Shown here: in pieces, positions 13,016 to 59,602 of the stretch | How positions within the stretch are numbered: the first letter of the stretch is position 1 | Layout: the number at the start of each line of letters is the position of its first letter | Assembly (NCBI GenBank): GCA_964019425.1 | Contig: OZ025810.1 | Span: 186,001 to 250,000 of the forward strand | Origin: Flectonema sp. DT1601 | Lineage: Eukaryota > Euglenozoa > Diplonemea > Diplonemida > Diplonemidae | Reading direction: 5' to 3' | Length of the DNA: 64,000 nt | The notes under the pieces: generated by a model | The model's input: only the letters and a program-made list of their open reading frames with translations | Told to the model about the DNA's origin: nothing | Databases searched by the model: none | Program-made: the position numbers and the translations under genes

Positions 13016-13053
<38 letters not shown>

Positions 13054-13672: not shown

Positions 13673-13703
<31 letters not shown>

Positions 13704-14873: not shown

Positions 14874-14998
14874 GGTGAAACTTTACAACTTCTGGGTATT
14901 AATACAAATTAGGAAAAAACATAGTATGGGATAAGGTATGTTTAATTAATAAACGGATATAATATTATTGTATTCTGTCTCAACTAATCGTCCGAATC

Positions 14999-15200
14999 TG
15001 GGGGGCGGGGGTAATTTATACGATACGAAAAGATTTATACGGGGGGTCGAATGTTTGAATTTGTAAAATACAAATTTTGTATCGCGTAACATAGCGATGG
15101 TTTAACATCTGTTAAGGATACAGTGACTATGGTGATGCTTAACTTAGCCTTTTAAAGTAACTATTAGGTTTCGAGAGTAATCCATATACGGGGGGGGTGG
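14999..15200. repeat. Dispersed repeat family B, copy 2
   Basis: The longest B copy. It carries GATACGAAAAGATTTATACGG, GTTTGAATTTGTAAAATACAA, TTTTGTATCGCGTAACATAG and the end part CTTAACTTAGCCTTTTAAAG. It is bounded by G runs at about 15000, 15041 and 15189. Confidence 0.7.
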
Positions 15201-15390
15201 GCAAATTTCATGCAGGATAAAGCACATCTGTGAAAACTCTCACAGACAATGCATGCTCTAGGATAAGAGCTGCTATTGCTTTTTCTTTTGCTTGAAATCC
15301 TTGTTTTTTATATTTTTCTTGTAATGTTTACTGGAAGTGACGTCTTAGTATCTTGAATGACTACGGGAGAGAGAAGTGTTTTTAAAAAAA

Positions 15391-15554
15391 AGAATTGGCT
15401 TCATCTTCAACTACACAGAAAATAATAATATAACAACTGTGATTTTTATGTTTGTGTCACGAAACCCAGTGAACCGACTTAAACTGATAAAGCTAAAGGA
15501 GGTTCACGTGTGCTGCCAACATTCTTTTTCCTTCTTACAATACTTGTTAAATGG
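15391..15554. repeat. Dispersed repeat family C, copy 2
   Basis: About 160 bp between two A runs, about 90% identical by eye to 62943-63101. Shared core: GTGAACCGACTTAAACTGAT, AAGCTAAAGGAGGTT, GTGTGCTGCCAACATTCTTT and ACAATACTTGTTAAATG before the trailing A run. Confidence 0.75.
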
Positions 15555-15803
15555 AAAAAAAAAAATGGAAAAAAAAAAGCAACACCCGAAGGCAATAACC
15601 GAACAAGAAAACGTAAATTCACACAACAGTGAATATACAGTGAGGGCACTCGTGTAGAATTGCCTTCATTCCCGCCAAGTAATGTCTAAAATAAGAAGGC
15701 GAGAGAGAGAGAAAAAAAAAGTTGCGAAGCCAGCAAAGAAAAAAAAAAAAAAAACAGGTTTACTTTTATTATTTCCCCTCAATTCACTTTTTTTTTCTTC
15801 CAT

Positions 15804-15835
<32 letters not shown>

Positions 15836-16127
15836 GTTTGTTTTTAATATTTTCAGTCTAAACACAACACCAACAGTTCGCAAAAATTAAGACCCACGCG
15901 TCACACAATGACGTGGTAGGCAGGGAAACAATAGAATGCTCTCCTTTTTTTTACATTGGGAAAGTACAAGACAGGTGCTCAGAAGGGACAGATCCGTTGA
16001 TTCACTTTTCGCTTCAGACTACTAATGCAACGTCGTATGCAACACAATAATAGTAAAGTGTGCATAAGAAACAACACTAGTAAAGATATCACTGTTATAA
16101 AGTCTCATGACAATCTATGGAACTTTA

Positions 16128-16159
<32 letters not shown>

Positions 16160-16233
16160 TTAAAAAAAATAGAACCATGGCTGCAATCGTTGCACAACTT
16201 TGACAGGAAACTCAAAACAGGTTTCTTTGCACA

Positions 16234-16264
<31 letters not shown>

Positions 16265-16763
16265 TTTTAGAATAAATTATTTATTATTTTTGCACGTTTT
16301 TTAATCACTTATCTATGTTAAGTGCGATTGCAAATTTTCATTTTAATAATTTTTTTATGTACGACGAAGTTATAACGCCAAACAATGAATTTTTTTTTTT
16401 TTTTTTTTTTTAAATCTTACTGGGAACGCACAATGATTTTCTTCCATTCACTCAATAAAAAAAAAAGAAAATTTAAAAGATACTCAAAACCAATATGTTC
16501 CCTATGTTATAGCCATCTTTAAAATTTGCAATAAACTATAAGGTAATTAGATGGTACAAACCATGGGTACTTAAATACTTTGTTTTTTTTTGTTTTAGTA
16601 AGGCAAGGAAAGCTCTTACCACGTCAAAAAAAAAAAAAAAAAAAAAAAAGCTCACACAATAAAGTGGTATATAAATCCATAATTCAAAGAAAGAAGACCC
16701 TACTGTGAGTCTATTAACTTCTTTCTAACTTACTTTTTTTCGGATTATAAAATTTTACCAAAG

Positions 16764-16806
<43 letters not shown>

Positions 16807-17435
16807 ATAACCAAAGTTGTTAAAGTAGTCTGGAAAAAAAGTACAGATAATTTTAATTTTTTTATTGTAATGTAATTGTAAAAGAAGAAGACTCTACTGT
16901 ATGAATCATCTGACTTCTTTACAATAAACTTAATCCATCATGGAAAGAAAAAAAAAAAAAAATAAAATAAAATAAAACTACTGTCTTTCAAAAAGGTTAT
17001 TAAAGTCTATTTAAAAATATTAATTTTCTTGCGAACGAAACACGTTTTCACATAACACAAGTTAAATCTCTCTTTTTTTTTTTTTTTTTTTCCTTTTTTT
17101 TTTTTTTTCTTTTGTAAGATCACGACAAAAGGCACGAGTCTGAAGAAAACAAAATATTCTTCTTCTTCTTCCCAATTAACTATTAAGCTACAAATTTAAT
17201 GACAACAAAAAAAAATAAAAAAAAAAGAGGAGGAAGAAGAAGACAGAAAAAAAGGCTCCCCCCGAATGTTAGAACACGTGAGAGGCGTGAGAGGCACACA
17301 TGAATCTCTCTCGCATTCTGAGACAAGAGGAGGGGAAAAAAAACACAAGACTTCCTTTAGAAGCGCTTTTTTTCAAACCTTTTTTTTTTCTACAAAATAC
17401 ACAAAACATAATTCGCAACTAAGCAGTGATTAGAA

Positions 17436-17467
<32 letters not shown>

Positions 17468-17506
17468 CGAGAAAAAAAAAAACGAAAGATTAATATAATA
17501 ATATTA

Positions 17507-17632
17507 TATTGGCTTAACGAAAAAACTCTACAGAAAAATCGTACTATAACACAATTGCTATGTTTTTACTTGTACACAAAAAAAAAACCGACTTAAACTG
17601 AAAGCCAAAACATTGTTTTCAGCTCTTGCAAT
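17507..17632. repeat. Dispersed repeat family C, diverged copy abutting family D
   Basis: Shares ATTGGCTTAAC, CTACAGAAAA, ACTTGTACACAAA and CCGACTTAAACTGA with the other C copies. It runs directly into the TTTA-rich edge of the second family D copy, so one element was probably inserted beside or into the other. Confidence 0.55.
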
Positions 17633-17811
17633 ATTTATTTTATTTATTTACGAAGCCTAGGAGCCAAAAGCCAGGAAAAGCTCAACAGGGTAACACGTTA
17701 TATCGCTACCAGCAACCGTGAGACTCTCACAGACGATAAGAGACGTAGAAATAACCTAGAACAAATGACTACCTAAACCCGCCTCTCGCGCGAGTAGACA
17801 GTGTTAGAGAG
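17633..17811 (-). repeat. Dispersed repeat family D, copy 2
   Basis: Same as 14411-14585 apart from scattered changes and a few extra bases near GGGTAACACG. The TAAA-type end points the same way, so both copies have the same orientation. Confidence 0.65.
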
Positions 17812-18036
17812 AATATACATTGTTAAATTCAACCACAACAAAAACAAACAGTGAGAATATCCATTGATGGGTAGAAATAATTATAAGAATAAAACGAGGA
17901 TAGCAAAAATAACCATTGAAAAACAAATTGAAATACACGAATTGATGTGGCTATTGATTCCAGATAAATACCTTCCCACCAAGTAAAGGCAATTACCCTG
18001 TCGAACAAAAACAAGTAAATCAAAAACAGCCGATAT

Positions 18037-19362
18037 CTATGGTAACATCGGAAATTCATTCTCTTTTTTATAAGGTCCTGTTCGTAGTAGGTCATCACCT
18101 GAGAACTGCCACATGTCGTCGTCATTCAGAATGAATGTAAAGTTTACTTTCCTTCTTTTATTAAACAACAAAGCAATATCAGAGACGCTAGATCTTCCCT
18201 TTATGATATAATCAGCGCTTGCCAGAAGTAAACAGTCTGTTACAACCTGTTGTTGATTGTTTGTCGTTGTGTTTCTGTGTTGCAAAAAAACCATTCAGAC
18301 CCCTCATTAGTCTGAGGAGGGAGTGCGAGATCCAGATTCCGCTCCATCATCGTAGCGCACCCTGCTATCTGTTTAGTCCCCCGACGGAAAGGGTCCCACA
18401 GCTACATATCTTCTCCGACTTCGTCGGTGCAAAAAAAGAAAACCAGTTATACATACCGAAATACCCTTCTGATAAGGGCTGAATTTCTTGCTCATGTGAG
18501 AGCCTCGGATGTCACCCTCAACAACTACTTCGTCTTTGCTAATTCGGGTATTATACTCGTCGTTAAATATGATCTTCTCTCCATACCTCTCAACCATCCA
18601 TGGAATAATCTCAGCCTCATCACTTGCTAAGAATATTACGTAATCCTTATCTCCTATTGTTGACACTACCCTGTCGATTTCAGAAGCGAAACAATCATAG
18701 GAAGGGTTGGTGTTTCTCTTTAATTTCATATCTGTTCCCCTGTAATGAACACCTATCATGTACTTGTCAGTGAAGTTTTTTCTTCCTTTGAATGCCTCAA
18801 CTTTCTCTAATACCGAAGTACGAGGTTTGATATATTGCTTTACAACTTTACTTAGAGATTCAACTCCACAAGGTTTTCCGCATTGCTTGGAAGGAAGCGG
18901 AAATGGTGTTGATTTAAGTTTTCGTTTTCCTTGAGCGACGTTAGAGAATGTTCCGAATTTTCCAAAACGGGCAAGGTATCTATTAAAGTGGACCTCCTCG
19001 ACCAATTGATTGTCAGTGAAATTCTTAATTCTAATCTCAGGATTAAAGAAGTAGGACCAATAATTATCACCAGACTTGTTAGTGTACATATCTGTGTCGA
19101 AGAACACTCGAACACCAAGTGCTCCATCTTGTTGTCCGTATCGAATGGCACCGACGACGTGCATTACGTCAGCGAACATTCCTTGACCCTTGAGATCGAA
19201 TAAAGGAAAGTCTTTCATCGAATAAATTACCATCATCTTTCCAGCAACTGTTTGATCTAATAACCCATCATCTAACTTATCTAACAGAGGTGTCTGAAAT
19301 AATACGAAAAGACACACGAAGACAACAACCAGATTGATGCGAGTAACGAGGCCAATTGTCAT
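18037..19362 (-). CDS. Golgi fucosyltransferase-like glycosyltransferase, 2 exons
   Basis: Exon 1 is 19362-18457 and exon 2 is 18246-18037; the product is 371 residues. A type II signal anchor (about 8-24, LVVVFVCLFVLF) suggests a Golgi lumen enzyme. IGVHYRGTDMK (203-213) is the GDP-fucose-binding HxRxxD region of the alpha-1,6/O-fucosyltransferase superfamily. Exon 2 gives the matching C-terminal motif VVTDCLLLASADYIIKGRSS (303-322) followed by VSDIALLFN. Reading through the GTATGT donor without splicing loses this motif, which confirms the intron. The acceptor sugar and linkage cannot be told. An earlier Met (19401) adds 13 residues, mainly Lys; I prefer 19362. Confidence 0.82.
18415..18427. 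repeat. Short perfect hairpin within the glycosyltransferase intron
   Basis: CCGAC-TTC-GTCGG, preceded by TTCT and followed by GC and an A run. A near copy stands at 51650-51662 with the same flanks. Confidence 0.5.
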
Positions 19363-30266: not shown

Positions 30267-30953
30267 CTACAGCTTATCAAACAGATCATCATCAAGAAGT
30301 GGAGTGCTTAAGTCAAGTGGAACAGATTGAACAGGAGGAGTATTCAGAACTAGATTCTCTGGTGATGGACGAGGATGGAAATGAGCAGTAACATCCTTAT
30401 GATGTGGTTTAGCCGCTTCCTCGTCGTCACTTCCTTCATTACTACTGTCTGATATAATGTCTTCGTAGGTTAGGTCTGAAGGTTTTGCATAAAATACAGT
30501 TCCCCTATCAACTTCTGTTTTAATTTTATAAACAACAAAACCGATTACAACCATCCCAATCAACGTCAACGCTACAATTACACCAACGTCATTAGTGTTG
30601 TTCGTCTTCACAATTCCCAATAATTTGTATTGTTTCGTGTGTATAATTGAATCTTGACTCTCATTCTTATAAACAATTGTTAAGTTCGGCATTGAACACG
30701 TAATATTATTTGGTATTAATACTTGACCATAAAAAACCATTCCATTATCCACTGATGAAGTGGCCAATAAAACATCTACAGCTCCATCACATACACAAAT
30801 CCATTGTGTAAGCGTTCCATCAGGTATAGAATTAGTTATATTGAGTTGCAATGGCTGATCAGTTTCTACACTCAATTGAAGTGGTGATCCGGGTTCTGAT
30901 TTTATAAAAGTATTGGAGAGTAATAAACAACAAATAACACCAAGATGCGACAT
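30267..30953 (-). CDS. Small type I membrane protein, function unknown
   Basis: 228 residues from the ATG at 30953, which places a normal signal peptide first (SHLGVICCLLLSNTFIKS). The lumenal part (about 20-122) has four Cys (CVC, and others) and several N-glycosylation sites (NIT, NLT, NES). One membrane helix (about 124-146, VIVALTLIGMVVIGFVVYKI) is followed by an 80-residue acidic tail with a YEDI motif, SDSSNEGSDDEE (casein-kinase-2-like sites) and DLSTPLLDDDL, which resembles a dileucine sorting signal. Open frame upstream of 30953 encodes a Phe run and lies before a strong acceptor-like site. I do not recognise a family. It lies next to the giant surface-protein gene. Confidence 0.7.
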   Translation of the reverse strand: MSHLGVICCLLLSNTFIKSEPGSPLQLSVETDQPLQLNITNSIPDGTLTQWICVCDGAVDVLLATSSVDNGMVFYGQVLIPNNITCSMPNLTIVYKNESQDSIIHTKQYKLLGIVKTNNTNDVGVIVALTLIGMVVIGFVVYKIKTEVDRGTVFYAKPSDLTYEDIISDSSNEGSDDEEAAKPHHKDVTAHFHPRPSPENLVLNTPPVQSVPLDLSTPLLDDDLFDKL

Positions 30954-31254
30954 CACATTTCTGAATTTCTGTTTGATAACAAAAAAAAAAAAAAAATTGA
31001 TTATAAAAAAATTCATCATAACAAAGTATATTATCTGCATATCTCATACTGTAACATATCAAACAAAAATAAACAAAAAAAGGTTTCAGACAGACGATAC
31101 GAATTTCAAAAAGAATAATAAACACAACCAACAATCTCCTGAAAAGAAGAATCAGTTTTGAAAATTAGGTTTTTTAAAATAAGTGCTACACGACTCGAAA
31201 GAGTCCATTAAAAAAAAAAGATGTCAATAATATGTGTAAATGTCACTATCAGAG
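30954..31254. other. Spacer between the giant gene and the small membrane-protein gene
   Basis: This 301-bp spacer contains, on the minus strand, a T16 run then GTTATCAAACAG (AG at 30969-30970), 15 nt before the ATG at 30953: a strong acceptor-like site. Nothing else seen. Confidence 0.55.
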
Positions 31255-34200
31255 TTAAGTAACAACAACTACGATCACAATCACTACAATTAACGTCAAC
31301 ACTAATTGCGATTGAAAGCAGCGTGCTGAGGAATAGTCAAACGGAGACAATGCTAAACCATCTCTTGGGGACATATCGTCTGTGATATTTGGAGAAGGTG
31401 TCATCTCCACATCAGATGAAGGAAGAGGAGTGTCAGATGCTGAAGGAGAGATTGTAAAAACTGAAATAGGTTGCAAACCAAAATTCTGAACAAAATCACT
31501 ACTCTCATTCCTAACAATATTAATAATCATATTAAATAAGACATTGTGTTCCTCAACACCCTTGACACGAAATTCAATTACCGTACTACAATTAACCTGA
31601 CACGGAGAATCATCTTCATCATCTTCCAACGTTGAGATTCTTTTATATTTTTCGCCTTGTTGTAATATGTAGTCGGCATACAAAGTACACAAAGCTGTGT
31701 TTACTTTCATAGAGTGAGTTATAATTGATGTACTGACCTCTGTTTGATTACTAACAGGAAGTGATTTCATTGGAATGGCACAAATCCAATTGATGAAAAT
31801 ATTTATTGTCGGAATGCCTAATCGGAATCGGATATCTGTGAGGAGGACTGATACTAAGTGATCGACGTTAACAGCCAAGTCTTCCAGAGACATCTGAACT
31901 GTGGGTTCTGCAATCCAAAGAGGAGGTGCTTCAGTTTGCAGTTGCGGTGCCTGATCAGGCTCTATCATTGTAACATCTAACGATCCAATTTCAAAGGCTG
32001 GAAATTCAACAATTTTCCCATTTAACAGATCCCTGACATCGATTTCAGGATCAGAATAGCATTGAAGTGTCATTACAGCCCTAGCGCAGTATGCTGAAAA
32101 GAATAAACTGCTGAATGATACTTCAGCGTCGTCAATGGGTTTTGTTATGTTGTAGAGAGTTGTATTACCGCTTTCATCACCTACCTCACAAACTATTAGA
32201 AGGGTGACAGCACTGTTAGCGATCGATTTCAATTTCTCATCATTACTTCCTATTATTGTTAGTTGGATTTCAAAATGAGAATCAAGAGAGAGTCTCATCA
32301 GTTCTTTTGTTATTTCATAATTAGGATCTTGTCTTATTGACCTCAAGTGAGTAGCATTTAAAAAAACTTGTTCACCATCATATTTTGGTAGACTACAAGG
32401 ATATTTATTTTGCTGGAGTCGCATACAATCCGACCCTTCGATTCTCAGTTCCTTTATAGATATTATCTCAACGAATGAGAAAGCAATAACTCTATCGTTG
32501 TTACTTAACGACGATAAGAAGAACGATGCTCTGTTTGACGCAAGCAGACTTATGTTTCTTATCAAAGCTCGACCGTTCTGTAATCTAACAATTCTCTGAT
32601 TATTATGCAGGAGTTTCCAAGCAGATTCTACACACGGTGTTGGCTGTACGTAGAGACACTCTTGGTTTTTATGCAAATAAATATCAAGTTTATCGCTTTC
32701 AATAATTGGTCTGTTCACACAGCTGTAGTGGTTATTACGGGCGCATAAGTGTGGTTGTTCAGGTGGGATTTCTTCAAGGAGAAGAACGTCTGAACTAAAT
32801 TCATCGTCGATATCAGAAGGTGTATCACCAAAGCGTGATTTCATTGTTATTCTCATGTTAAAGTAATAACCCGATACTATGGAAATTTCATGGGATGGTT
32901 TCCAAAATGGTGATTCTCTCGATTGGATTTCCAATTCCACAAAATCAAATCCAGTTCCTACCGTAACCTCTGCTACCGTAATCGGAGTAATCCAAGGGTA
33001 ATAGGCATCACCTTTAGCAACTTTATCATTCTGTAGTCCAACAACCAAATCAAAAGGATGATGAATGCCATCAATACGTGTTGTCTTATTAATGGTGAAA
33101 GATACAACAGCTCTACCTTCAACGAATTGTGAAGAGAAAGAGTGAATTGAAGAGCTTCGATTACCTCCAGACGGAATTAATGAAGCAACAGCAACACTAA
33201 TAGAATCAGTTACCTGTAGGTTATCAACATCAAATAATAAGACGGTTATTGAGATTACTCTGCCAGAATAAATATGAATCTTACGCAGAGTTGAATCCCA
33301 GTAGCTGATGTCATCATCTCTAGCAGCTATTGTAACGGAATCACCTGAGACTGGAAGTATCCGATTACCTTGTAGCTGTTCTTCAATTCGTATAAAGTTA
33401 CTATACTCAACTCTTACGTCTAATGTCTGAGTTAATATAGTTCCCTCAGGAAGGTTTACAACTCCAGTAAAAACACATCTCCTAGCCACTTGATTAGTAG
33501 CTGGTGATTGCAATGGTTTCGGTGGATAAAACCTACCAGACAATATAATTAAACCAACTGATGAGGTAACTGATTGTAATTTAAAACAATTCAAAGGCTG
33601 CATTTCAACTTGTAATTGAGAAACAGCAAAATCTGACAATCCATGCTGTGACAGAACTATTCCACTTTCTGATAACCCTCTCAGTGACATACTATGTGAT
33701 AAATAACCAGTAGCATGCGACGATACTGTTGAAGGACGTGTTGCATTGTCTTTGATGATGAGGCTGTCTTCTTGTCTACCAGACGTCCAATAGAACGATT
33801 TGACTTTTGGTTTTAATATCTCAACTCGGATTTGCTGCGGATAAAAATCACGAACTGCATGAGAAGCCGTGACAACACACCTTCCTTCACCTAAACTACT
33901 AAACACGATTAGGAAAATACCATCATCTCCCTGTGGAATTACCGTTGGTAATGATGCAGTAGTACAACCAACACAATCAACACAGTTATAGTCAACAGTT
34001 ATGTTAGCAACTGTTGGGTCTAAAGAAGTGTAGTAAGTGTACGATTGCATATCAAAAGAAGACATTCCAATTTGAATTAAAATTTTATCACCAGCAACCA
34101 TCGTTCTCTGACTATTCCCGGAACCCTTCACATATAAGAATGCAGCTGGTTGGGACCAACTGACTTTACTGATGGATTCTCCCTTGGAGTCAACAACTGA

Positions 34201-37200
34201 AATTGGATTTCCGTCGAATTGGAGTTGAAGATCGTATTGCGGAACAGGACCTTTGTTAAGTATTAAAGTTATTTTATTATTATCATAAAGAGCTCCATCT
34301 ACCACAGGTGTCTTTGATGATAATTCAACTGAAGCAGAACTGTAAACGTCTGCCGTATGGGAACCATCACTCGCTTGAAGTTGAACAACTTCACGAGAAA
34401 CATAAGATGGAATAAGTGTTATGTTTGAGAACTTAACACGATGATATTGCTGAGGTTGTTGCCAAGCAAGAAGTGAAGGTCCTCCAGCAAACAGACTCAA
34501 GTCACCTGAATCATCTCCAATGTAACCAAAGTAATCAAACTCAACATGAGAAGAGTTTATTATCGATTTCATTATCTTAGTGACGACAAATCGAGTAGGT
34601 TTTCCAGACACAGTAAATGATCCGTTTCTATTCCCAACAGTAATGATACATTCCCAACAAGATCGTGAGAATCGAGCTCTATAAAAAGTTGTACCTGATC
34701 TCAGTATCATCAAATCCGTTGCGTTGTATTCGTCGATTTGAACTTCACCACCCATTCCGTTACCAGTTTTAGTACCGATAAAAGCCATCATTTCTCTCTT
34801 TATCGCTCCATCTTCACTTCCAGCTGGAATATTACTCGAGTCGACGTTTACTGCTGCTATCGAGAAAGGTTTCTTACGAGTTATAATACCCTGTGGGTGT
34901 ACTAATAGTGTGCTGTGGGCACAGGTTTTTACTTTGAAAATTGCCTCTTCGCCGTATGCATCCCAACGTACGTAGAAGTTATCACCACTAGCTGTTTGAA
35001 TTAATAATTTACAACCAGAACACGGTCTGATAAAACTAACTTTAAATGACATAGTGAGTTGGTTGAGTGCTATCCATCTCCCATCATGGTTAGTGTCAGT
35101 ACCAACTCCACAAGTACCATTTCCAATTCGAAGAAATCCACCATTTCCGTAGTGAAGACGATTGCGATCGGGTTGTCCTGTCCAGACAGATCGAATGTAT
35201 ATATTCATTTCTGGTTTTAAATCAATTGTAGTAGTGGTTGTCGCATCAACAGGTACGACCCAATCACCAGATATAGCAATAACCCTTTCCATTGTAATAG
35301 ATATTAAAGAACCAGTTAAATGATACTCTGAAGGTAACCGTTGCTTACTAACAACATCCAACACACTTACTATTTCTGTTGAACTGCTGAAAACACTTGA
35401 AAACGCTAAACGTTCGCTCAAAGACGGAAGTTCTGTTGTCGGTCTTTCAACGCATTCACTTGCAAGAGCTAATGAATAACAAAGACGAGACTCTACATAA
35501 CAATCCACACAAGGAGAGTGTAATGTTATCCACAGTGTTAATTGACCTTGAGTAGTGAAGAAGTTCGATTCCGGAACAAAGCCATTTTTTGATAAAACAG
35601 AAATTGTATAATTTACCAACCCGATTGCAAAACTATTCGAATTTGAACATGTTGAAGAAGCCTTTAAAGTGACGAGAATCTTTGATTTTGGATGAGAGTA
35701 GGAACGATGACCCGAAGAAGTTAAAACCCGAATTTGAATCGGAAAAGGAACTCCAACAGCAACAGCACCTGACTGGGTTATGTCGAAACCAAACCCTGCA
35801 ACTGACTTACTATATAAATATCTACCTAGCTTCTTTCTGTATCTCAATTTTTCATAGCAGTTATCATCACTGACCGGACTACTGATTACAACTTTCTGAC
35901 TGCGCTCACTAGTTGGGATCTTCCATTGGTGAATAGTCTTGAGAGAGTACGGGATCATGCCCTTCGCTGAGACTATAATATTTGTTGACAATTCAGTAAT
36001 ACCGTAGAATGAAATATTTCCTTTATCAGAGTAGTTGAATTGGATTGTAGTTCCGTGACTTGATAGGTTATCAGAACTTACGAATATTTGATTTAGAACA
36101 GAAGAGATGTTAACGATGTTCTCATTAATTGATTGATCCCAGTGTTGATATAAAACAGAGGTATCGCTGTTCCAATAGTAAAGAGTTCGTATTAACAATG
36201 TTATTTTAGTCGCACTTACACCACAGAAATCTTCAATTCCTGGCACGACCATAGCAGTGCTGTCGCCGACAGCTTCTGTTCCCCCGCTTACAAATTCAAC
36301 TGAAAAAAAAGTCTCAGGACTCACCGGCAACAAAGACAAATATATCATCACACAGGCTATCTCAACAGCGAACTGTTGGTTTGATTGTTCTACGGCTGTC
36401 GATGCCAATAGGCAGATTTTTATTTTTCCTCTATATAAAGGGGTTAGTTTACCTTTCCAAGATGCTAAGTCAATAATAATATCCCCGCTACCATCAGTAG
36501 GAGACGTCATTGGAATCTTTGATGATATCTGCAGTGTTGGTGTTCCGTATGTCACAGTTTCTGTATCACCACTCTCAGAGATGATTGTTTGGTCAGGAAT
36601 CTCTGAAGGTATTGTTAGGTACGGAGATCTACAGGCAGAACCTGAACACTCCCAAGGAAATTTATTATTAACTGAATAGTTACGAGGGGTCAAGTCTGGT
36701 ATCCAACTTCCCTGAAATAGACGTTGAGGTCTGACAGGTACGCTGATGGTACCTGAAACAGCATGTGATGTGATGTCAATATCTCCTGTTAGTGGATTTC
36801 GATTTATTAATTTAGTGTTTGGAATGAATATCCTGGTTGGGAATTCAATCGGGTTCTGAAGTTCTTTTAATAACAACGTAACAGAACAAGAGAGAACTCT
36901 CACACCCGTTGATATTGTTCCAGTTGCTGTGTTGCTGTATCGTTGTGTTCGGGTTGTGAAATGTAATTCAACAGTTTTTCCATCTACAAGATCAAAGCCA
37001 TCACTCTGCTTTAAAACAATACCATTGAATGTAGCGATTCCGCTATTCATGAAAACAGTTGAGTTCATGTTGCTTATTATGTTGGTTGTGGTCAGAGTTA
37101 TAACCCAATTCGGCCATTCAGACTCTTTTCCAAATACAGAAACAGCAGCAACTGTAACAGAAATGGGTTTTGAGTGACCCCTATAGAATTCTGTTAGTAT

Positions 37201-40200
37201 CTCTGTTGGACAATGTAAACGATCAACGTCGTTCATTAGCGAGAATTTTATTTCACTATTTCCACTTCCATCTGGTCCTGCTCCTGTTGTGCTGTGAAAA
37301 GTAACGATGCAATCAATGCAAGGCTTGCTTGTTCTTATTATGATGTTCTGAGATGTGCTTTTGTCATCAATAGTACTGTTGCTAGACGATATTATTTTAA
37401 CATCTTCAGTTGACTTCGATGATAACGACCATGGAAAAATAACACCGCTGTGATATTCATCAGGAACAAATCCCGAAAACGTTGGAGTTCCCGGGGTACA
37501 TTTTACCGTAACCCCAACACCAACCCCACTCTTTGATGGCGTAATCGCTTCAACTTTTATAGTAGTCGCAGGTATTCTGACTGATATGGGAACACTTGTA
37601 ATTATTTTATTGTTTACGTATTTATTTGATTCGTCAAGTCGGATGTTTAAATTACAAGGATTGTATCGTCCGCAATTGTCTGAGTTCGTTATTCTTATTT
37701 TAACAAAATGAGTAAAGTGGTTTGGAGATCTCACATCCCCTTCTGACAATAAGAATTCTGGGTTTGATGATAGAGTTGTGTGTAACACCTCAGTAACTGT
37801 TTCATAATAAAGTAAATTAGACTTTGTGTCGTCTAATACTCTGTGATACTTCGACATGATCGGATTGGTGTCTGATGACGTGAACACGAAACTACTAAAA
37901 TCAATACCCTGATTGAACAATTCTCCAACATTATCAGTAATTTTTAAGAGAACTACGTACGGATGCATCGCTTGTAAATATGAAAAAGAATGATTTGATT
38001 CTGGAAGTGATGGATCCCACGTATCAACAGGAACAGTTACCTTATCAGATGACGGTATTGAAATACCCTTTCCAATTCTTGTGAATGAATCAAACGGAAG
38101 GATGTCAATAATGTCGATTTTCTCAACAACATGTTTGTGAACTACTACCAAAGTCTTTGGACTGTTTTTAGTCACAAATCTGAATTCTATCTGAGAACTG
38201 TCGACTCCCTCTGACAGTGTTGGAATGAATATCTTTTCCAACACTCCCCCAAGCTTCCAATTTAATCCTCTTTCAATAATCTGCACAGGATTTACTTTAA
38301 ACTGAGCTGTAGAATAGTTTGCAAAAACATCACAAGGTTCACTTGGAGCTACTTCTGGTGAGTGTTTCCAAACTGCTTGAATTTTTATAAGGCATTCCCG
38401 ACCAGAGAAACAGTTAATAATATTACCGGAAGTGTTCGTCAGCAGGATGTAAGAATCCGGTCTTCTTTTTAAAATATTTATCCAAATTGGAGGTGATAAT
38501 ATTTCAACATTCTGTTGAAGGATTACTCTAAGACGGAATCCACATCCGTACTCATTAGGACACTTAGACAATAAACGCATTGTTACATAACTTGCTCCCT
38601 GACGAAGGTTGAAACAACCTGTTGATGAATTTGCGAATCCGGTTGGAGTCTTCCAAAGAAATGATGTCTTTAAACCAGCACTCTGAACCGGACATGACAA
38701 GTCTGCGATCGACTTAGCTTCAGGACATTGTATTACAACTACTACTCCTGTTCCGTAGGGTACTTTTTCATTTAATCGCAATAATTTTAAATTAATATCA
38801 ACTTTTCCATTCGTTGCGATATGTGAATAAGAAGGTTGTCCAGAAGGTCCTACAGCAAATGTTGTTGGTGTTTGAAGAACACGTACTGATCGTTGAGTTA
38901 GTTTCAGAGGATTCCAAATAGAGATTCGAGTTCCTACGAAGAGGGTTTCAAAAGTGCTGTTGTCGATCGAAGTTGAGATCGCATCGGCAATCCGACCCTG
39001 TTGGAAATATAACGAACCCCCTCCGGAAACTACTGGACCAGCATTCGTCGCTTGAAAAACTGATCCATCAGCTGTTTGAAAACACACAGCATACCTACCG
39101 AACGTATTAATTGATAACGTTGGAGGTAATGGTAGATAAAGCAACTTCCAATACTCAGTATTAACAACAGAATCCCATAAAACAACATCATTCGGATAGC
39201 ACCAATCAGTTTTACTGACACCTCCGTACAACACTCTCTGTGATGATAAAGCAACTGACATCACACTTGAATTTAATCTCTGATAATGATACTCCGACTG
39301 CTCTACAACAAGAAGACCAGGTACAGCAGTCCATCCCCCACCAACATTATCCTTAAAACATAAAATATAAACACCAATTTCAGAAGGTGTGATAAACGAC
39401 AAACTGACTATCCCGTTGCTAACGAGCTCTGGGTAGAATGAAGTCTCAACATAGGAATGGGCAAGACAACCAACGTCTATTGCATGTGATTGCAGAACTA
39501 GTTTATAATTATAAAATAATACGGCACCAGATATTGATGAATCAACCTGAAGAAGAAATCCTGGCTTCAGAACACCACCATCATAGTAGTCTGTTGCTTG
39601 TGAAGTAGTAGTTGTTGTCGTTTGAATTCCCGATGTAAAGTATTCCCAACTAATGATCAAAGAAGGAACAGTCATTAGGAGGTCTCCCTTGGCTGAAGGA
39701 AGTTCAATCCAACTTCTGAATAAGTAATCTTCATCAGAAGAGATGTCAGGTAGCTTTACAAACAAACAAACTCTAAACAAACCAGACACCTTTGGAAGAA
39801 TAATAACTGCTGAAGGGCTGCTTGTTAATTCGTCACCTGGACCAAGATCAATCACAGAAGCACTTCTATTCGAGAGTGAGTTATCACCACAACGATCACC
39901 ACCACCAACTAACATCAGGACGTCTCCTGCAGGATGAGGTAAGGTGTTGGCAGCGTAATCTTGAAGTTTTAAATTAATTTTTATAGTTTCCATCGCGTTG
40001 TAGTGACCTAAAGTACCCCAACCCACACCTCCAGGTTCCCAACTAGAACCGTCACTGAATATGTTGTACTCGCCTTTACTTTTGTGCCAAGTCAAGTCGT
40101 CAATTCTGTAACATATTTTATAACAACCAAACCGATCAGGTGTCGTAATAGTGAATGCTAACCTCGAGTCTGTTATGATTCTCTTACTAGTAGTAAAGCA

Positions 40201-43200
40201 ACCAGTTGGAGCAGCTTCAGTACCAGCAGCTGTTGAAACACACATCGTACTGTCATCACAGGATATAAACTTTGCTTCAAAGTAATCAGTGAACCCACGA
40301 ACATCTTCTGAAAGCATTTCACTACTACTATTAAACAATGATGAATACCCATTAATCTGTTGAATCGTAAATTGTCGAATAACACTACTTCGAAGACTTC
40401 CAGGCTGTGGCCACAATGAAGGTAACGCATACTGCCGTACACTCCAATATCGATGTAGAACAATCCAGTTGGTTGACCATTGTTGTCTGTAGCATAGGTT
40501 GTATTTGGTATCACCTTTCGGTATCGTGAAGTATAAGAATGTGTGATTTGAATTAGACTCTGCAATAGTTGGTGAAATATTACTCAAGACCGGCACACCA
40601 GCTGATGGTCGACATCTATCACACCAGCCAACAATTACAAAAGATGACAATTGTGAGTTCGCAATGCAGGTTTCTGTCGGTCGAACAAATTTAAAAATAT
40701 CATTTCCTGAAAGAAGGCTGTCAGAGTCAGTGACTTCTACTACCACATCAACATTACTTCTGTTGTCGGTGATATCGAGAGTGATGGCTGGTTTGTTTTG
40801 AATTCGCATAATGTTTCCGATTGATCTCCAATTCCAATAAAGAGTTTTACAGCAAACAACATACTCACCAGGTATGTTTGGTGCTTGAATCCAGAGTGGT
40901 TCCTCATCAAAGATGATCGACTCTGCCGGAGGATCAAGAACCGGAGCGGTAGTTCCCATAGGAAGGAGTTCTGATTCTGTATCAAGACTCCAATCATAAA
41001 ACTGAGGATAATCACATGGTCTGCTGTGATGAACAATACGAACCTTTCTAAGAGGTGGATTACTACTGACACTTCTATTTAGTTCAGCAATCCATATTGG
41101 ACCCCATGTCGCTGCACGAGTGTCGTTCATAGCCCATATTAATTCCGAGTTGTAGATATCCGGTGAATTTTGAAACGACCCAGCGATCAGTGGCTCTGGT
41201 TTCACAGAAATAGAATCACTGGGAGGGTGTAGTGAACTCCACTCCCCTGAATCATCCCAGGGAAGTACTCTCCATCCCTGACCTATAGAACCTTTTCTGT
41301 AACAAACTTGCCTTGACTGATACCTCCTTCCAGTAAATATTATTGAGTAAGACGTTGTTACGCTTGATAAATCATTTATAACATTTGATAGACTTGGAGC
41401 TTCGTTAGTCATTGCGATGAGATCTCTAGACGATGATGGATACTTTCCAACAGTTTCAGAGAATATAACATCACGAGTATCCCAGCATCCTATTAGAGGA
41501 GTTGATTCAATCTGATCACTAATATGGTAGCCGCTGTTTACAAGTCGAAGCTGATCACCTCCATCGGGAGACCAGTAAGTCAATTCAGAGAATAGTGTTG
41601 TTGTTATATTAGTAGGAAGTCTACTTAAGTCTGGATAATTAGATTTTATTCTAACTGTTCCCCAAGTCCTTTCCGTTAGGTCCATTATTGACCATTTAAT
41701 TTGTTCATCAAAAACTTCAAAAACTGGTCTCGTAGAAAACAACAACGCTGCGTCTCTTCTTCCAGACGTTGGAGCGCCTGAGGCACAACCAGAGTTGCAA
41801 TTCCAAATTTTTCTCCACATTGGTCGAGATGGGAGTGATTCGTTTCCATATCCTATGTTGTCGTTTAATTTCCAAAGAGATCGTTGGATCGAAGATGAAA
41901 AACAAACACTATATGACCCAACACTTGGAGGAAGTTTCACAAATGCGATTACAAAACCCTGCTGTGACAATTCAGAGAACGACTCCACTTGAGGATGAAG
42001 AAGTTCAGTTCCGATAATTGCAACGCCACCTGAAGTCGCATGATCAGACATAGCAGGGTATCCCGTTGGTAACCACTCTCCAGTAGCCGATACAAATGCA
42101 GATCCCAAATACGGCTTTCCAGATTCATAAGTCTCCTTTGAGCATTCCTCATCACTTGGAATCACTTTTACGGAGTCTACTTTCGCACAGTTGATGTTGT
42201 CTCTCGGAAGCATCGAACAGTTACTCCCTCCCATTGTAAAGTTCCAATCCAACTCTCTATTTTGTATTTTTATAACTGCGTATTGATTCACTGTTGGTTC
42301 CTTTACTTCAAACCAAACACCACTTGCGACAGATGTCCAGACTGCTTGATTGATTGGTGGTGCACTTCCAGTCATAGTTTCTGGTAACGCATAACCGCTG
42401 TCTTCAGTGAAGAGTAGCCACTCGTTATTGTGAATGAATTGTACGTAGTGAGGTCTATGTTTAAAACATATCAACCAGCTGCTGTCGTGATGTGGTGCAG
42501 TAAATGAAACAAAAGCTGTCATTGAAAACACATCACCCATCCCCAACTCTTCCGTTGCAATGCCATAACGTGAAATCGTACGAATCGCAGTAGCACCTGA
42601 GACGTATTCTTTACATCGATATCCAATGTTTGATTGGTAGCGGAATACTTTTATTATTAATTCTCCAAGAATATTATTTGTGTTGTTGAATAGTTTTTTA
42701 TGAACTCCATCAACCGTAGCTGATAATGAAAGCCTAACCTCCTGACCTTCAATAACTCCCGTTCGACTATTAGGGAACATCGAAGTTGTGTAATTATCAA
42801 ACTGAATTACTGTAAGAGATTCAGACATCGTTAGCGTGAGTGTTCCTGACTTCGACAATGAAAGTGATTCGGATGCTGACTCACTCAGAGTATTAGATAA
42901 TGTTATTGTGAAAGAATCGGATACTGATTTTGATTTTGTTATGCTTCCGGTAAAAGTAACAGACAACGACGCGGTTTTCGACAGTGAATACGTCTCTGTA
43001 AGTGAAAACGTGTCCGATTTACTTCTCGTAGCAGTTGGTAGTGATAGTGAAACAGTAGCACTCTGAGTACCAGTTTCAGAATAGGAATGCGACAGACTTT
43101 CTGAGAGAGATTTCGTAACAGACATCGTTAGTGAAGTAGTACGTGTTCGTGTGGGTAGAGAAAATGTTCTCGTGAAAGTCATCGAGTAACTGGGAGTAGG

Positions 43201-43908
43201 TAAACTCAACGATACTGTTTGTGTCTTTGTAAGTGAATCTGTGACAGTTCGCGAAGCTGTAGGCAAAGACAACGACACAGTCGAGGAATACGTCTTTGAG
43301 AACGTGTTAGATCCCGTTGGAAGTGTTAAGGAGTCGGAAAATGTTAAGGAAATTGTTCGCGTCGATGTAGGTAGTGACAGCGACACTGATATCGTAGGCA
43401 GAGACAGAGTAACTGATAGGGTGCGAGAATTCGTAACCGTCGTTCCCGTGGATGTTTCGGTTCGAGTGGGTAAACTAAAACTAACCGTCTGAGTCGGCAA
43501 TGAAAACGTAATTGTCGCTGTAGCAGTTGGAAGAGACATCGAAACTGTGGCTGTTGGAAAAGACCAGCTAACAGTTGCTGTTGGCAGCGACTCACTTTTA
43601 GAAGCCGTCGGAAGAGACAAACTCATCGTACTCGTCGGTAAACTCATTGAGGTGGTGTGAGTGACAGTTCCTGTGATTGGTGGAGTGATACTCATAGTTG
43701 GGGTTCCACTGTAGGTATTTGTTAAGCTTTTTGTAACTGTGAGGGTCCTACTAGTAAGTGATAAAGAACTTGATATGCTTCGACTGACCGTTTGAGTTCT
43801 TGTCGGAAGTGATAACGAAAGCGTCTTCGTTGCAGTCGCGCATTCCGCATCTTCTGGGTGGCTGCAAAGCAGCGTAACGATAACTACTAGCGACCACCTC
43901 ACAGTCAT
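31255..43908 (-). CDS. Giant modular, probably GPI-anchored surface protein (4,217 residues)
   Basis: A single uninterrupted exon of 12.65 kb. Residues 1-23 are a signal peptide. Residues about 25-365 (DNA about 42830-43840) are almost only S, T, L, P and V in a loose repeat of SLSLPT, likely O-glycosylated. About nine modules of 120-160 residues follow (DNA about 39.0-42.5 kb), each with a GxYxxC(Y/F/C) strand, often with Trp soon after, for example GEYVVCCKTLYWNW and GVYILCFKDNVGGGW. From about 38.6 to 33.9 kb a second module with PCxxC occurs (KPCIDCIVTF, SPCVDCYVES, RPCSGCKLLI, SCWECIITVG). The C-terminal end SSARCFQSQLVLTLIVVIVI and a few more Val/Thr fits a GPI signal: small residues, spacer, hydrophobic end with no cytoplasmic tail. 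S/T-rich SLSxP repeats occur, from memory, in surface proteins of free-living kinetoplastids. Role in adhesion or surface coat is inference. Confidence 0.85.
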   Translation of the reverse strand: MTVRWSLVVIVTLLCSHPEDAECATATKTLSLSLPTRTQTVSRSISSSLSLTSRTLTVTKSLTNTYSGTPTMSITPPITGTVTHTTSMSLPTSTMSLSLPTASKSESLPTATVSWSFPTATVSMSLPTATATITFSLPTQTVSFSLPTRTETSTGTTVTNSRTLSVTLSLPTISVSLSLPTSTRTISLTFSDSLTLPTGSNTFSKTYSSTVSLSLPTASRTVTDSLTKTQTVSLSLPTPSYSMTFTRTFSLPTRTRTTSLTMSVTKSLSESLSHSYSETGTQSATVSLSLPTATRSKSDTFSLTETYSLSKTASLSVTFTGSITKSKSVSDSFTITLSNTLSESASESLSLSKSGTLTLTMSESLTVIQFDNYTTSMFPNSRTGVIEGQEVRLSLSATVDGVHKKLFNNTNNILGELIIKVFRYQSNIGYRCKEYVSGATAIRTISRYGIATEELGMGDVFSMTAFVSFTAPHHDSSWLICFKHRPHYVQFIHNNEWLLFTEDSGYALPETMTGSAPPINQAVWTSVASGVWFEVKEPTVNQYAVIKIQNRELDWNFTMGGSNCSMLPRDNINCAKVDSVKVIPSDEECSKETYESGKPYLGSAFVSATGEWLPTGYPAMSDHATSGGVAIIGTELLHPQVESFSELSQQGFVIAFVKLPPSVGSYSVCFSSSIQRSLWKLNDNIGYGNESLPSRPMWRKIWNCNSGCASGAPTSGRRDAALLFSTRPVFEVFDEQIKWSIMDLTERTWGTVRIKSNYPDLSRLPTNITTTLFSELTYWSPDGGDQLRLVNSGYHISDQIESTPLIGCWDTRDVIFSETVGKYPSSSRDLIAMTNEAPSLSNVINDLSSVTTSYSIIFTGRRYQSRQVCYRKGSIGQGWRVLPWDDSGEWSSLHPPSDSISVKPEPLIAGSFQNSPDIYNSELIWAMNDTRAATWGPIWIAELNRSVSSNPPLRKVRIVHHSRPCDYPQFYDWSLDTESELLPMGTTAPVLDPPAESIIFDEEPLWIQAPNIPGEYVVCCKTLYWNWRSIGNIMRIQNKPAITLDITDNRSNVDVVVEVTDSDSLLSGNDIFKFVRPTETCIANSQLSSFVIVGWCDRCRPSAGVPVLSNISPTIAESNSNHTFLYFTIPKGDTKYNLCYRQQWSTNWIVLHRYWSVRQYALPSLWPQPGSLRSSVIRQFTIQQINGYSSLFNSSSEMLSEDVRGFTDYFEAKFISCDDSTMCVSTAAGTEAAPTGCFTTSKRIITDSRLAFTITTPDRFGCYKICYRIDDLTWHKSKGEYNIFSDGSSWEPGGVGWGTLGHYNAMETIKINLKLQDYAANTLPHPAGDVLMLVGGGDRCGDNSLSNRSASVIDLGPGDELTSSPSAVIILPKVSGLFRVCLFVKLPDISSDEDYLFRSWIELPSAKGDLLMTVPSLIISWEYFTSGIQTTTTTTSQATDYYDGGVLKPGFLLQVDSSISGAVLFYNYKLVLQSHAIDVGCLAHSYVETSFYPELVSNGIVSLSFITPSEIGVYILCFKDNVGGGWTAVPGLLVVEQSEYHYQRLNSSVMSVALSSQRVLYGGVSKTDWCYPNDVVLWDSVVNTEYWKLLYLPLPPTLSINTFGRYAVCFQTADGSVFQATNAGPVVSGGGSLYFQQGRIADAISTSIDNSTFETLFVGTRISIWNPLKLTQRSVRVLQTPTTFAVGPSGQPSYSHIATNGKVDINLKLLRLNEKVPYGTGVVVVIQCPEAKSIADLSCPVQSAGLKTSFLWKTPTGFANSSTGCFNLRQGASYVTMRLLSKCPNEYGCGFRLRVILQQNVEILSPPIWINILKRRPDSYILLTNTSGNIINCFSGRECLIKIQAVWKHSPEVAPSEPCDVFANYSTAQFKVNPVQIIERGLNWKLGGVLEKIFIPTLSEGVDSSQIEFRFVTKNSPKTLVVVHKHVVEKIDIIDILPFDSFTRIGKGISIPSSDKVTVPVDTWDPSLPESNHSFSYLQAMHPYVVLLKITDNVGELFNQGIDFSSFVFTSSDTNPIMSKYHRVLDDTKSNLLYYETVTEVLHTTLSSNPEFLLSEGDVRSPNHFTHFVKIRITNSDNCGRYNPCNLNIRLDESNKYVNNKIITSVPISVRIPATTIKVEAITPSKSGVGVGVTVKCTPGTPTFSGFVPDEYHSGVIFPWSLSSKSTEDVKIISSSNSTIDDKSTSQNIIIRTSKPCIDCIVTFHSTTGAGPDGSGNSEIKFSLMNDVDRLHCPTEILTEFYRGHSKPISVTVAAVSVFGKESEWPNWVITLTTTNIISNMNSTVFMNSGIATFNGIVLKQSDGFDLVDGKTVELHFTTRTQRYSNTATGTISTGVRVLSCSVTLLLKELQNPIEFPTRIFIPNTKLINRNPLTGDIDITSHAVSGTISVPVRPQRLFQGSWIPDLTPRNYSVNNKFPWECSGSACRSPYLTIPSEIPDQTIISESGDTETVTYGTPTLQISSKIPMTSPTDGSGDIIIDLASWKGKLTPLYRGKIKICLLASTAVEQSNQQFAVEIACVMIYLSLLPVSPETFFSVEFVSGGTEAVGDSTAMVVPGIEDFCGVSATKITLLIRTLYYWNSDTSVLYQHWDQSINENIVNISSVLNQIFVSSDNLSSHGTTIQFNYSDKGNISFYGITELSTNIIVSAKGMIPYSLKTIHQWKIPTSERSQKVVISSPVSDDNCYEKLRYRKKLGRYLYSKSVAGFGFDITQSGAVAVGVPFPIQIRVLTSSGHRSYSHPKSKILVTLKASSTCSNSNSFAIGLVNYTISVLSKNGFVPESNFFTTQGQLTLWITLHSPCVDCYVESRLCYSLALASECVERPTTELPSLSERLAFSSVFSSSTEIVSVLDVVSKQRLPSEYHLTGSLISITMERVIAISGDWVVPVDATTTTTIDLKPEMNIYIRSVWTGQPDRNRLHYGNGGFLRIGNGTCGVGTDTNHDGRWIALNQLTMSFKVSFIRPCSGCKLLIQTASGDNFYVRWDAYGEEAIFKVKTCAHSTLLVHPQGIITRKKPFSIAAVNVDSSNIPAGSEDGAIKREMMAFIGTKTGNGMGGEVQIDEYNATDLMILRSGTTFYRARFSRSCWECIITVGNRNGSFTVSGKPTRFVVTKIMKSIINSSHVEFDYFGYIGDDSGDLSLFAGGPSLLAWQQPQQYHRVKFSNITLIPSYVSREVVQLQASDGSHTADVYSSASVELSSKTPVVDGALYDNNKITLILNKGPVPQYDLQLQFDGNPISVVDSKGESISKVSWSQPAAFLYVKGSGNSQRTMVAGDKILIQIGMSSFDMQSYTYYTSLDPTVANITVDYNCVDCVGCTTASLPTVIPQGDDGIFLIVFSSLGEGRCVVTASHAVRDFYPQQIRVEILKPKVKSFYWTSGRQEDSLIIKDNATRPSTVSSHATGYLSHSMSLRGLSESGIVLSQHGLSDFAVSQLQVEMQPLNCFKLQSVTSSVGLIILSGRFYPPKPLQSPATNQVARRCVFTGVVNLPEGTILTQTLDVRVEYSNFIRIEEQLQGNRILPVSGDSVTIAARDDDISYWDSTLRKIHIYSGRVISITVLLFDVDNLQVTDSISVAVASLIPSGGNRSSSIHSFSSQFVEGRAVVSFTINKTTRIDGIHHPFDLVVGLQNDKVAKGDAYYPWITPITVAEVTVGTGFDFVELEIQSRESPFWKPSHEISIVSGYYFNMRITMKSRFGDTPSDIDDEFSSDVLLLEEIPPEQPHLCARNNHYSCVNRPIIESDKLDIYLHKNQECLYVQPTPCVESAWKLLHNNQRIVRLQNGRALIRNISLLASNRASFFLSSLSNNDRVIAFSFVEIISIKELRIEGSDCMRLQQNKYPCSLPKYDGEQVFLNATHLRSIRQDPNYEITKELMRLSLDSHFEIQLTIIGSNDEKLKSIANSAVTLLIVCEVGDESGNTTLYNITKPIDDAEVSFSSLFFSAYCARAVMTLQCYSDPEIDVRDLLNGKIVEFPAFEIGSLDVTMIEPDQAPQLQTEAPPLWIAEPTVQMSLEDLAVNVDHLVSVLLTDIRFRLGIPTINIFINWICAIPMKSLPVSNQTEVSTSIITHSMKVNTALCTLYADYILQQGEKYKRISTLEDDEDDSPCQVNCSTVIEFRVKGVEEHNVLFNMIINIVRNESSDFVQNFGLQPISVFTISPSASDTPLPSSDVEMTPSPNITDDMSPRDGLALSPFDYSSARCFQSQLVLTLIVVIVIVVVVT
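42830..43840 (-). repeat. Ser/Thr-rich coding repeats of the giant protein
   Basis: About 340 codons of degenerate SLSLPT-type units (TVSLSLPTATRS, TRTVSLSLPT and relatives). Units vary in length and codon choice, so this is an old repeat and not a recent tandem copy array. The opposite strand is open in places only because of the composition. Confidence 0.85.
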
Positions 43909-47982: not shown

Positions 47983-49470
47983 ATTCGGAATCGAGTGATA
48001 GATCCACACCAGACCCCTCGGAAACCAATTCCTGCTGAGCTACACGCACAGTGAAGACATAACCTCCGGTACACGAACCAAGAAAACTCACTTCGTACTT
48101 CGAAAAGACACATGCCACTCAAACAACTCTTTCAACACGGTACACTAGAGTGTAGCGCGCTTATTAAAGGGGTAAAATTAAAGATTTTATTCAAAACAGA
48201 ACCCCAAGAGGCCACGGGGATTGGGTAGCAGCAAGAAAAAGAATTACTGCAAAAGAGATCTAGCGAGCTCTCACAATGAAGCTCAGAGTGCCTGCAAGGC
48301 AGTCGAAGGAAAGGAACCTGTTCAAACCTTAGAGTTAATAAACAAAGACTGACGAGACAGATGTATAATAATAGCGTCTGCTTAGCCTTGAGATGGTTCT
48401 TTCCCTAACAATTTCAAGCAAAGCAAAAGCAAACAAAATATATCAAAAACAACTGTCCAATAATCTGAACTGGATACCATACCAACACTGTAATGGGAAG
48501 GGATAGAAATGATCATATAAAAAAAAACGACAGAACATGCCCTGTTAATTTCTTTTCGGGGGGGATTGCGACACTGACCTCAAGAGACTACAAAATACCT
48601 TTCGCAAGTCATTACTACAACAGGAGGAGATGAAGTAATGAAAAAAAAAAAAAGTTTTTTTAATCCAGAGTGAACTTTAGCTCAAAATGTATCAATACCC
48701 TGACGATGTTACATCCGACTGCGCCTCGGATGCATTTCGCGAAGAGTATTGGACTGCTGTTCTCAGGCTTTCATTGTTTCTACTAATACGGAATAAAAAA
48801 AAAGTTTTTTTCACTTCACTAATAAGGCGACGATGACAAAAGGTCACTAACCACATCGTCTTTCCGTTCAGTGACTTCAAGGTTTTTCCCATATGAGTGA
48901 GTAAACAAAGTAACAATAGATATGTGGAAAAGAAAAAAAGGTACAAAAAGTGAGCACCTACCTGGAGTCTTCAGGTCAGCATGTCATTATGAGGGTTGCG
49001 TTACCTACGAAACTTGGGAAGTCCTCTTGCTTAGAAAATCAAAAAAAAAAAAAAGGGGAAAAAAAAGGAAATAAACACATTCGTTGTACTACAACGAAAA
49101 AAAAAAGAGAAAAAAAACATGAAAAGGATGAGAAAATAAAGAAAGGCAACATAAGGGCAATCGGTTTCCCTAAAGAAGATTATGCTGTAAGAAAATAATT
49201 CTCTTTCGCCGAATAGTAGTTTGAGACAAAAACAACTAACACACATTAAAAAAAATGACAACCTGATAAGAAGAAACATGTACTGATTGCTACCGACAGG
49301 TATATAAAGGTTTTTATTGTACAACGTGAGATAATTTATTAAAACGTCATTTTATGACCCGAGCATAGAGAGCAGCAGTTCGTTTGAATGATACAGGATG
49401 ATAGCCACTTTATAAGATGCTAAATAAGTACAGAAACAGTGTGGAAGTAATTCTCTCAAGCGTTGGGGTA

Positions 49471-49541
49471 GGGCATCCGCACTTTGATGACTACAAGTCA
49501 ATCAAAGGGCATCCGCACTTTGATGGCTACAAGTCAATCAA
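49471..49541. repeat. 36-bp tandem duplication, two units
   Basis: Units 49471-49506 and 49507-49541 begin GGGCATCCGCACTTTGATG and differ at one base (GACTAC against GGCTAC). The exact period and near identity point to a recent duplication. Confidence 0.85.
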
Positions 49542-58322: not shown

Positions 58323-59602
58323 TCATCCAGCTTTAGTTCCATCTTCATCAAATGCCTCACGCATCGCGTGAACGTGAGAGTTAACCGCCTCCTGTTAATG
58401 AATTGTTTTTTTACTAATTAACCAGCAATTTAAATAATAAAAACCTACAGAACAAGATCATACCTGTAATTCCTTAATATTAACCTTATCAGTACTGTTG
58501 TCTGGTGCCTGAAGAGGTCCTACTGATCCAGTGTCAAGTCTAGAGATGAATCTGTGCTGCAATGCACTTTCTGCGGTTGGTCTGTCAGACGGGTCTAAAG
58601 ACAACAACAGCGATACTAACTTCCTACCTTCAGGCGAGACAGTTTTCCATTTCTTGTCATGAACCTCAGGAAACACGTGAAAATCCCACGCTTCAGGTTT
58701 CTTCATGAATGGGAGCAGATCTTCCTTTGTTTTTCCAACGATAGGTGGGAAAGATCCAATTAAGAGAAAGTACAATACAATACCGCAAGACCACAAGTCC
58801 ATACGCTTTACTCCTTCCTTAGTAGTTGGTACTTTAGGAATCTCAGTGTGATTCATCTGAAGAATTCCCTTACGAGTTCCTGATAAGATCTCAGGTGCCA
58901 TGTATGATCGAGATCCGAATGGTGTTGCTGAAGCAGATCCGACGACAACCTTGGCGATACCAAAGTCGGTTAATTTAACGATTCCGTTGCATTTTTGAAT
59001 CAGTAGATTCTCAGGTTTGATATCCCTATGAACAATGTCATGACTATGGAGATAAGCGACGACTTCAAGAAGCGACTTCATAGTAAAGACGACGTGTCTT
59101 TCTGTTATCCACATGCTATCTCTACGAAGTTCGTTTAAAAATTCCCAAAGATCACAATCCATCATTTCATATACGAAGTTCACTGTAGTTCCAGTCTTTA
59201 TAATTTCGTACAGCGTTACAATATTTGGATGGCTGACTCTTCTGGTTATTTCTATCTCTTGTGCCAACCAGGCGATCTTAATACCGTCTTTCTCTGACTT
59301 ATCTTTTGACGTCTCAATTACCTTGATTGCTCGTATCTCACGATCAGGTTTTGTGTATGAGCAGTAAACCTTAGCGAAGGATCCTTCACAGATTTGATTC
59401 ACTACGTCATAACGCTCAGAGATGTCGTCTAGGACGTAAAACGGCTTTATGTCGTCCGATCCGTCGGGTATTCCTGTATTGTTTATTAATATTTAGTAGA
59501 GTATGGGGTGTACTTGAAATATTAACAAAAAAAAAACAAACCTTTAGCCATCTCATTTTGCTTTTCTATGGTTTGTATCCGCTTCAACTTTTTTGGAGGC
59601 AT
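58323..59602 (-). CDS. Ser/Thr protein kinase B, paralog of kinase A, 3 exons
   Basis: Exons 59602-59542, 59473-58464 and 58391-58323; the product is 379 residues. Head MPPKKLKRIQ parallels kinase A. Seen: CEGSFAKV, AIKVIE, HRDIKPEN, LTDFGIAKV, FGSRSYMAPE, then the family insert KGILQMNHTEIPKV, then MDLWSCG. All catalytic residues are present. The last exon gives EAVNSHVHAMREAFDEDG, matching the end of kinase A, where no intron interrupts. Donors are GTTTGT and GTATGA, acceptors CAG. A long pyrimidine tract and ACACAG lie 37 nt upstream of the start. The pair probably arose by local duplication. Substrates unknown. Confidence 0.88.

Follow-up and report, generated by a model that had tools for sequence, protein, structure and literature searches.

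Giant single-frame genes of a diplonemid: a family of probable surface proteins with a conserved cysteine scaffold

What kind of protein is encoded by an uninterrupted frame of 4,217 codons in a diplonemid, and what might such a chain do? The question is raised by a 64,000-base stretch of Flectonema sp. DT1601 (contig OZ025810.1, positions 186,001 to 250,000, assembly GCA_964019425.1; hereafter the window, to which coordinates refer unless a contig is named), in which the minus strand carries at 31255-43908 the open frame of a protein here called P0001. On balance, we favour the reading that P0001 is one of many giant protist surface proteins that are secreted, are each encoded in a single frame and together form an ancient multigene family, and that it serves as a glycosylphosphatidylinositol (GPI)-anchored coat or adhesion stalk.

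A family of giant open frames

All 4,217 codons lie in one frame followed by a stop codon, exactly as the initial annotation of the window had it, and they lie on the minus strand, as do all features of P0001 described below. The probability of meeting no stop over this length is about 10^-121 at the frame's own base composition, and the longest stop-free stretch in the remaining five frames at the locus is 165 codons. That the frame is coding is shown by a second protein, P0003 (an unnamed protein of 4,069 amino acids from another source, ENA), which is homologous to P0001 over nearly its whole length. The two are colinear full-length homologues (1662 bits) and share a Ser/Thr-rich head, a hydrophobic C-terminal tail and 71 of the 80 cysteines that follow the head of P0001, although 31% of the alignment columns are identical (1306 of 4259) and P0003 has no recorded function. 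P0003 was reached only with the Ser/Thr-rich head as query (1,632 candidates scored); when residues 360-4217 or 1040-1640 served as the query instead, the protein searches returned only P0001 itself among the 1,625 and 1,615 candidates scored, respectively. No prokaryotic or viral relative was confirmed by pattern scans of viral contigs (for the type-1 region and for one further pattern, A7) and of genome contigs (for A7), or by tblastn in phages, the sensitivity being limited to shared patterns or to what tblastn detects.

Paralogues were sought in the genome, whose 92 contigs total 89,535,806 bases. With residues 380-1660 as query there were 35 matches at E <=10, and with residues 1661-4217 there were 22 at E <=0.001, the own locus being included in both. 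Between them the two queries marked, beyond the own locus, 17 places whose open frames span 3,599-5,114 amino acids; with P0001 itself, at least 18 loci carry a matching frame of 3,599 amino acids or more. Five further places (on C22, C30, C69 and C7, and C47:250077) matched only in shorter frames. Ten of the 17 places were fetched for reading, and each holds one long frame (that on C29 extends beyond the fetched stretch). The giant proteins are an uncharacterised family, each of about 4,000-5,000 residues in a single chain that probably forms a surface rod.

In a tree of 12 sequences, P0001 and P0003 were separated from the rest with 100% bootstrap support; the root is not safe, as the C29 sequence sat on branches of 42-86%. 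Over trimmed columns the pair is 35% identical, compared with 21-26% between P0001 and its own paralogues and 21-29% between P0003 and those paralogues. P0001 and P0003 are most simply read as orthologues, which places the duplications before the species split; given the unsafe root, orthology is argued from these pair distances (35% against 21-29% to the rest). Less simply, P0003 may be the outgroup to all other members.

Five of the 17 places lie on one contig, C47, where giant paralogues are clustered at 166-318 kb. Such a five-copy cluster, together with divergent paralogues (21-66% identity over trimmed columns) on one conserved scaffold, could be expected of a recognition system (mating, kin recognition or allorecognition), in which diversifying selection would act on paralogues that mark self, either as alternatives or expressed side by side. 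We consider this improbable: the three C47 copies that were compared (L002, L004 and L006) encode the same protein sequence in the first 1,259 codons (nonsynonymous divergence, dN, 0; synonymous divergence, dS, 0.002-0.003), and no diversification is therefore seen there. L002 and L003 differ at 1, and L004 and L005 at 0, of 4,800 bases; unless they are an assembly artefact, the C47 copies look like recent duplicates that arose by segmental amplification.

Predicted ends and cysteine scaffold

Both ends of P0001 resemble those of a secreted, anchored protein. Residues 1-24 (43837..43908) are signal-peptide-like by hydropathy, with the cleavage site placed by eye; the best 15-residue mean is 1.97, and a hydrophobic N-terminus was present in all 12 family members scanned (1.41-2.55). 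The following Ser/Thr-rich head (residues ~25-364, 42817..43836) is 49% Ser plus Thr with 14 LPT motifs, and a comparable head of ~44-635 residues, its length varying among paralogues, occurs in 11 of the 12 members (it is missing from C29). On this head alone the NCBIfam model ser_rich_anae_1 scored 16.1 bits, compared with its cut-off of 650. At the other end, residues 4196-4217 (31258..31323) form a hydrophobic, GPI-signal-like tail up to the stop codon. P0003 and the C12:291199 paralogue have the same C-terminal layout, and in these three proteins the best 15-residue mean exceeds 2.5 at no more than one residue from the end; in C12:824377 such a tail lies within 7 residues of the end, and in several paralogues the tail is not clear. 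By hydropathy, both P0001 and P0003 combine a putative signal peptide with a hydrophobic C-terminal tail and no cytoplasmic part. With its signal-like start, its Ser/Thr-rich head and a hydrophobic terminus at the stop codon, P0001 is laid out as would be expected of a GPI-anchored stalk.

The chain between head and tail holds 80 of the 82 cysteines of P0001. When 11 sequences were aligned (all but that of C29), at least 10 of them agreed at 303 positions of P0001. Cysteine stands out among them: beyond residue 364, 59 of the 80 cysteines are kept in at least 10 members and 46 in all 11, compared with 23 of 67 Trp (34%), 47 of 241 Gly (20%) and lower shares of the other residues. Because cysteine is so outstandingly conserved, the whole ectodomain is one conserved and fixed scaffold, most simply a disulfide scaffold. 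The order of domains is also the same in the 11 members, which come from two sources. Giant surface proteins often lengthen or shorten through the gain and loss of repeats; judged from the alignment, the present one is a fixed scaffold and unlike a repeat stack of varying number. Constant order and 46 invariant cysteine positions suggest that selection keeps the length or shape of the molecule constant.

A fixed order of cysteine-bearing domains behind a Ser/Thr-rich head might also befit a structural protein of an extracellular matrix or theca, which would be released from the cell and would work without a specific ligand. The hydrophobic tails of several members argue for anchoring instead, and we hold this alternative to be quite unlikely.

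Module composition and fold

The initial annotation described about nine GxYxxC(Y/F) modules (type 1) followed by six or seven PCxxC modules (type 2). Direct MAFFT alignment of the modules of P0001 and leave-one-out hidden Markov models were unusable and gave way to family profiles. Of the 28 blocks into which the family alignment was cut, nine were centred manually on the type-1 motif and 19 covered most of the remaining chain, and HHalign was used to compare every pair of blocks profile to profile; the top pair (T2421-T2499, 99%) consists of overlapping blocks and, as an artefact, was left out of the counts. Among type-1 blocks 17 of 36 pairs reached at least 50%, compared with 0 of 171 pairs of type-1 and other blocks that reached even 20%. 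Nine related type-1 modules are thereby supported, M1 and M9 being the least firmly linked, and the number first given is borne out, although the strict GxYxxC(Y/F) pattern occurs only four times in P0001. Their core is a D-x-hydrophobic-(K/R)-hydrophobic-V strand followed by Cys, G-x-Y-x-x-C-(Y/F) and Trp, with exceptions in single modules.

From the N-terminus, the type-1 modules are M1 (42394..42771, Cys 432 and 481; 57% with M5), M2 (41839..42267, Cys 589 and 669; 95% with M4), M3 (41254..41712, Cys 808 and 869; 92% with M4), M4 (40786..41157, Cys 965 and 1019; the module used for fold prediction), M5 (40426..40803, Cys 1081 and 1139; 95% with M4), M6 (40045..40311, Cys 1223 and 1266; 92% with M8), M7 (39655..39996, Cys 1340 and 1381; 89% with M4), M8 (39286..39591, Cys 1481 and 1517; 91% with M5) and M9 (39001..39288, Cys 1570 and 1609; 79% with M7, over only 19 columns).

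The type-2 modules are fewer than first described. Among the other 19 blocks just three pairs reached 20% (C2963-C3084, 86%; C2800-C3084, 83%; C2197-C3084, 34%), and xCxxC occurs seven times in P0001 and strict PCxxC three times. Separate alignments of the type-2 modules were poor. Three modules are firmly linked by the block comparison: residues 2700-2835 (35404..35811, Cys 2800/2803), 2872-2998 (34915..35295, Cys 2963/2966) and 2995-3118 (34555..34926, Cys 3084/3087), the first two matching the block of the third at the values given. A fourth, more weakly linked at 34%, may lie in residues 2112-2230 (37219..37575, Cys 2197/2200). The rest of the chain belongs to neither module type at this sensitivity: residues 1637-2111 (37576..39000) are conserved and cysteine-bearing ectodomain, residues 2231-2699 (35812..37218) likewise conserved ectodomain, and the membrane-proximal residues 3119-4195 (31324..34554) mostly less conserved. 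A sliding-window comparison agreed with this picture of the modules.

That neither module could be assigned to a named domain agrees with our searches. No match of P0001 or of the family passed the curated Pfam-A cut-offs; the best match below threshold, in a paralogue, had E 0.014 and 15.9 bits against a cut-off of 25. Profile searches of PDB sequences gave matches at chance level only (E 0.056, 0.61 and 1.2) or none. The notion that both types might be new beta-sandwich families fared unevenly: a model of the single type-1 module M4 was predicted, with modest confidence, as a seven-strand Ig/FN3-like sandwich (best Foldseek E against PDB structures 1.5), whereas that of a type-2 module was unusable (predicted local distance difference test, pLDDT, 32). 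The likeness to Ig and FN3-like folds is one of the M4 model; no sequence similarity to these sandwich folds was found in Pfam or the PDB. Taken together, the modules would represent two domain families outside Pfam, with a map of conserved cysteines that could be used for structure work.

Neighbouring genes and genome context

The initial annotation set the lack of introns in P0001 against neighbours that have them. This is true of an Arp1-like neighbour at 6.7-8.2 kb (five GT...AG introns, read by eye), but an Nramp gene (profile positions 2-350 of 357), a kinase gene (58458-59402; positions 6-263 of 263) and a DEAD helicase gene each fit within one frame. As several neighbours lie in one frame, the missing introns of P0001 are nothing special. 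All 16 frames of at least 250 amino acids in the window share the minus strand, and over 64 kb such a uniform orientation is unusual. One-strand gene order and the Ser/Thr-rich head would suit a kinetoplastid or bodonid origin, but the cis-introns and the Arp1-like gene speak against it. Directly downstream of P0001 lies a 257-residue gene (30267-31040, minus), membrane-protein-like by eye and without a second match in its own genome at E 0.01, which is a possible partner of the giant protein.

Elsewhere in the window, a minus-strand frame at 61146-62201 matches teneurin-type EGF (E 2.8e-07), a 36-bp unit is tandemly duplicated at 49470-49541 (97% match), and KKNVGSTR.PPLALSV, probably a dispersed repeat, recurs nearly identically in ~10600-18400 and 62200-64000 (minus strand). 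In the wider genome, mitochondrial carriers gave 150 scored matches (none of 14 control genomes matched) and their genes form a tandem array at C5:190747-200559; the carrier matches argue against an oxymonad such as Monocercomonoides. Light-harvesting proteins and cadherins had no match in the genome (one control genome matched for each), and chitin synthase 1 matched neither this genome nor any control, a negative that carries no weight. C16 and C20 carry tandem arrays of 5S ribosomal RNA genes with units of ~623 and 610 bases, and a linkage of the spliced leader to the 5S arrays was not seen in one unit read by eye and two units searched with Rfam.

Proposed function and comparison with known systems

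For the favoured coat or adhesion stalk, the following course may be proposed. The signal peptide would be removed and the C-terminal GPI-type signal would then anchor the chain. The ectodomain of ~3,700 residues (by our own estimate, some 30 domains of Ig size) would be rigid, with nine Ig/FN3-like modules and other cysteine-bridged domains in fixed order, and this rod would hold the Ser/Thr-rich, probably O-glycosylated head off the membrane. Its most likely work would be that of a cell-coat or adhesion stalk. Stiffness and length may be the reason why the disulfide scaffold is preserved, whereas the head and the stretches that separate the cysteines would diverge among paralogues, so that these would differ in what they bind or do in the coat. 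More tentatively, and at less than even chances, the family could represent a kind of eukaryotic surface molecule not described before: a disulfide scaffold of ~3,700 residues, rigid from end to end, built with at least two domain families outside Pfam, present in two genomes as copies about one third identical, its paralogues being interchangeable coat or recognition stalks. No such giant protist surface-protein family was seen among the papers listed in literature searches.

A component of cilia or extracellular filaments, such as a subunit of mastigonemes (flagellar hairs), would polymerise through cysteine-rich parts and would not be a membrane-anchored adhesin. The organism probably has cilia, because the window contains a match to MIP-T3 (which we take to be IFT54). 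In Chlamydomonas, the mastigoneme protein MST1 is long and extracellular; its nine tandem Ig-like domains precede a cysteine-rich region with 26 disulfides, and AlphaFold2 likewise predicted it poorly (PMC11015965). MST1 has ~1,930 residues, polymerises and has a polyproline helix at its end (PMC11015965), where P0001 has a GPI-like tail. No sequence match between MST1 and P0001 was found, and no MST1 chain was reached in the profile and sequence searches of the PDB, in which the presence of an MST1 chain was unchecked; at least 18 loci would also be many for a single filament. A filament subunit is thus a doubtful explanation, and we retain the anchored stalk. A comparison by description only can be made with Giant1-5 of Apilactobacillus kunkeei, which are likewise a multigene set of giant extracellular surface proteins (3,000-8,000 amino acids), but which are bacterial and have beta-solenoid domains in Giant1-4 (PMC12863079). 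By analogy of architecture, MST1 would be the nearest case to P0001 in the way it works.
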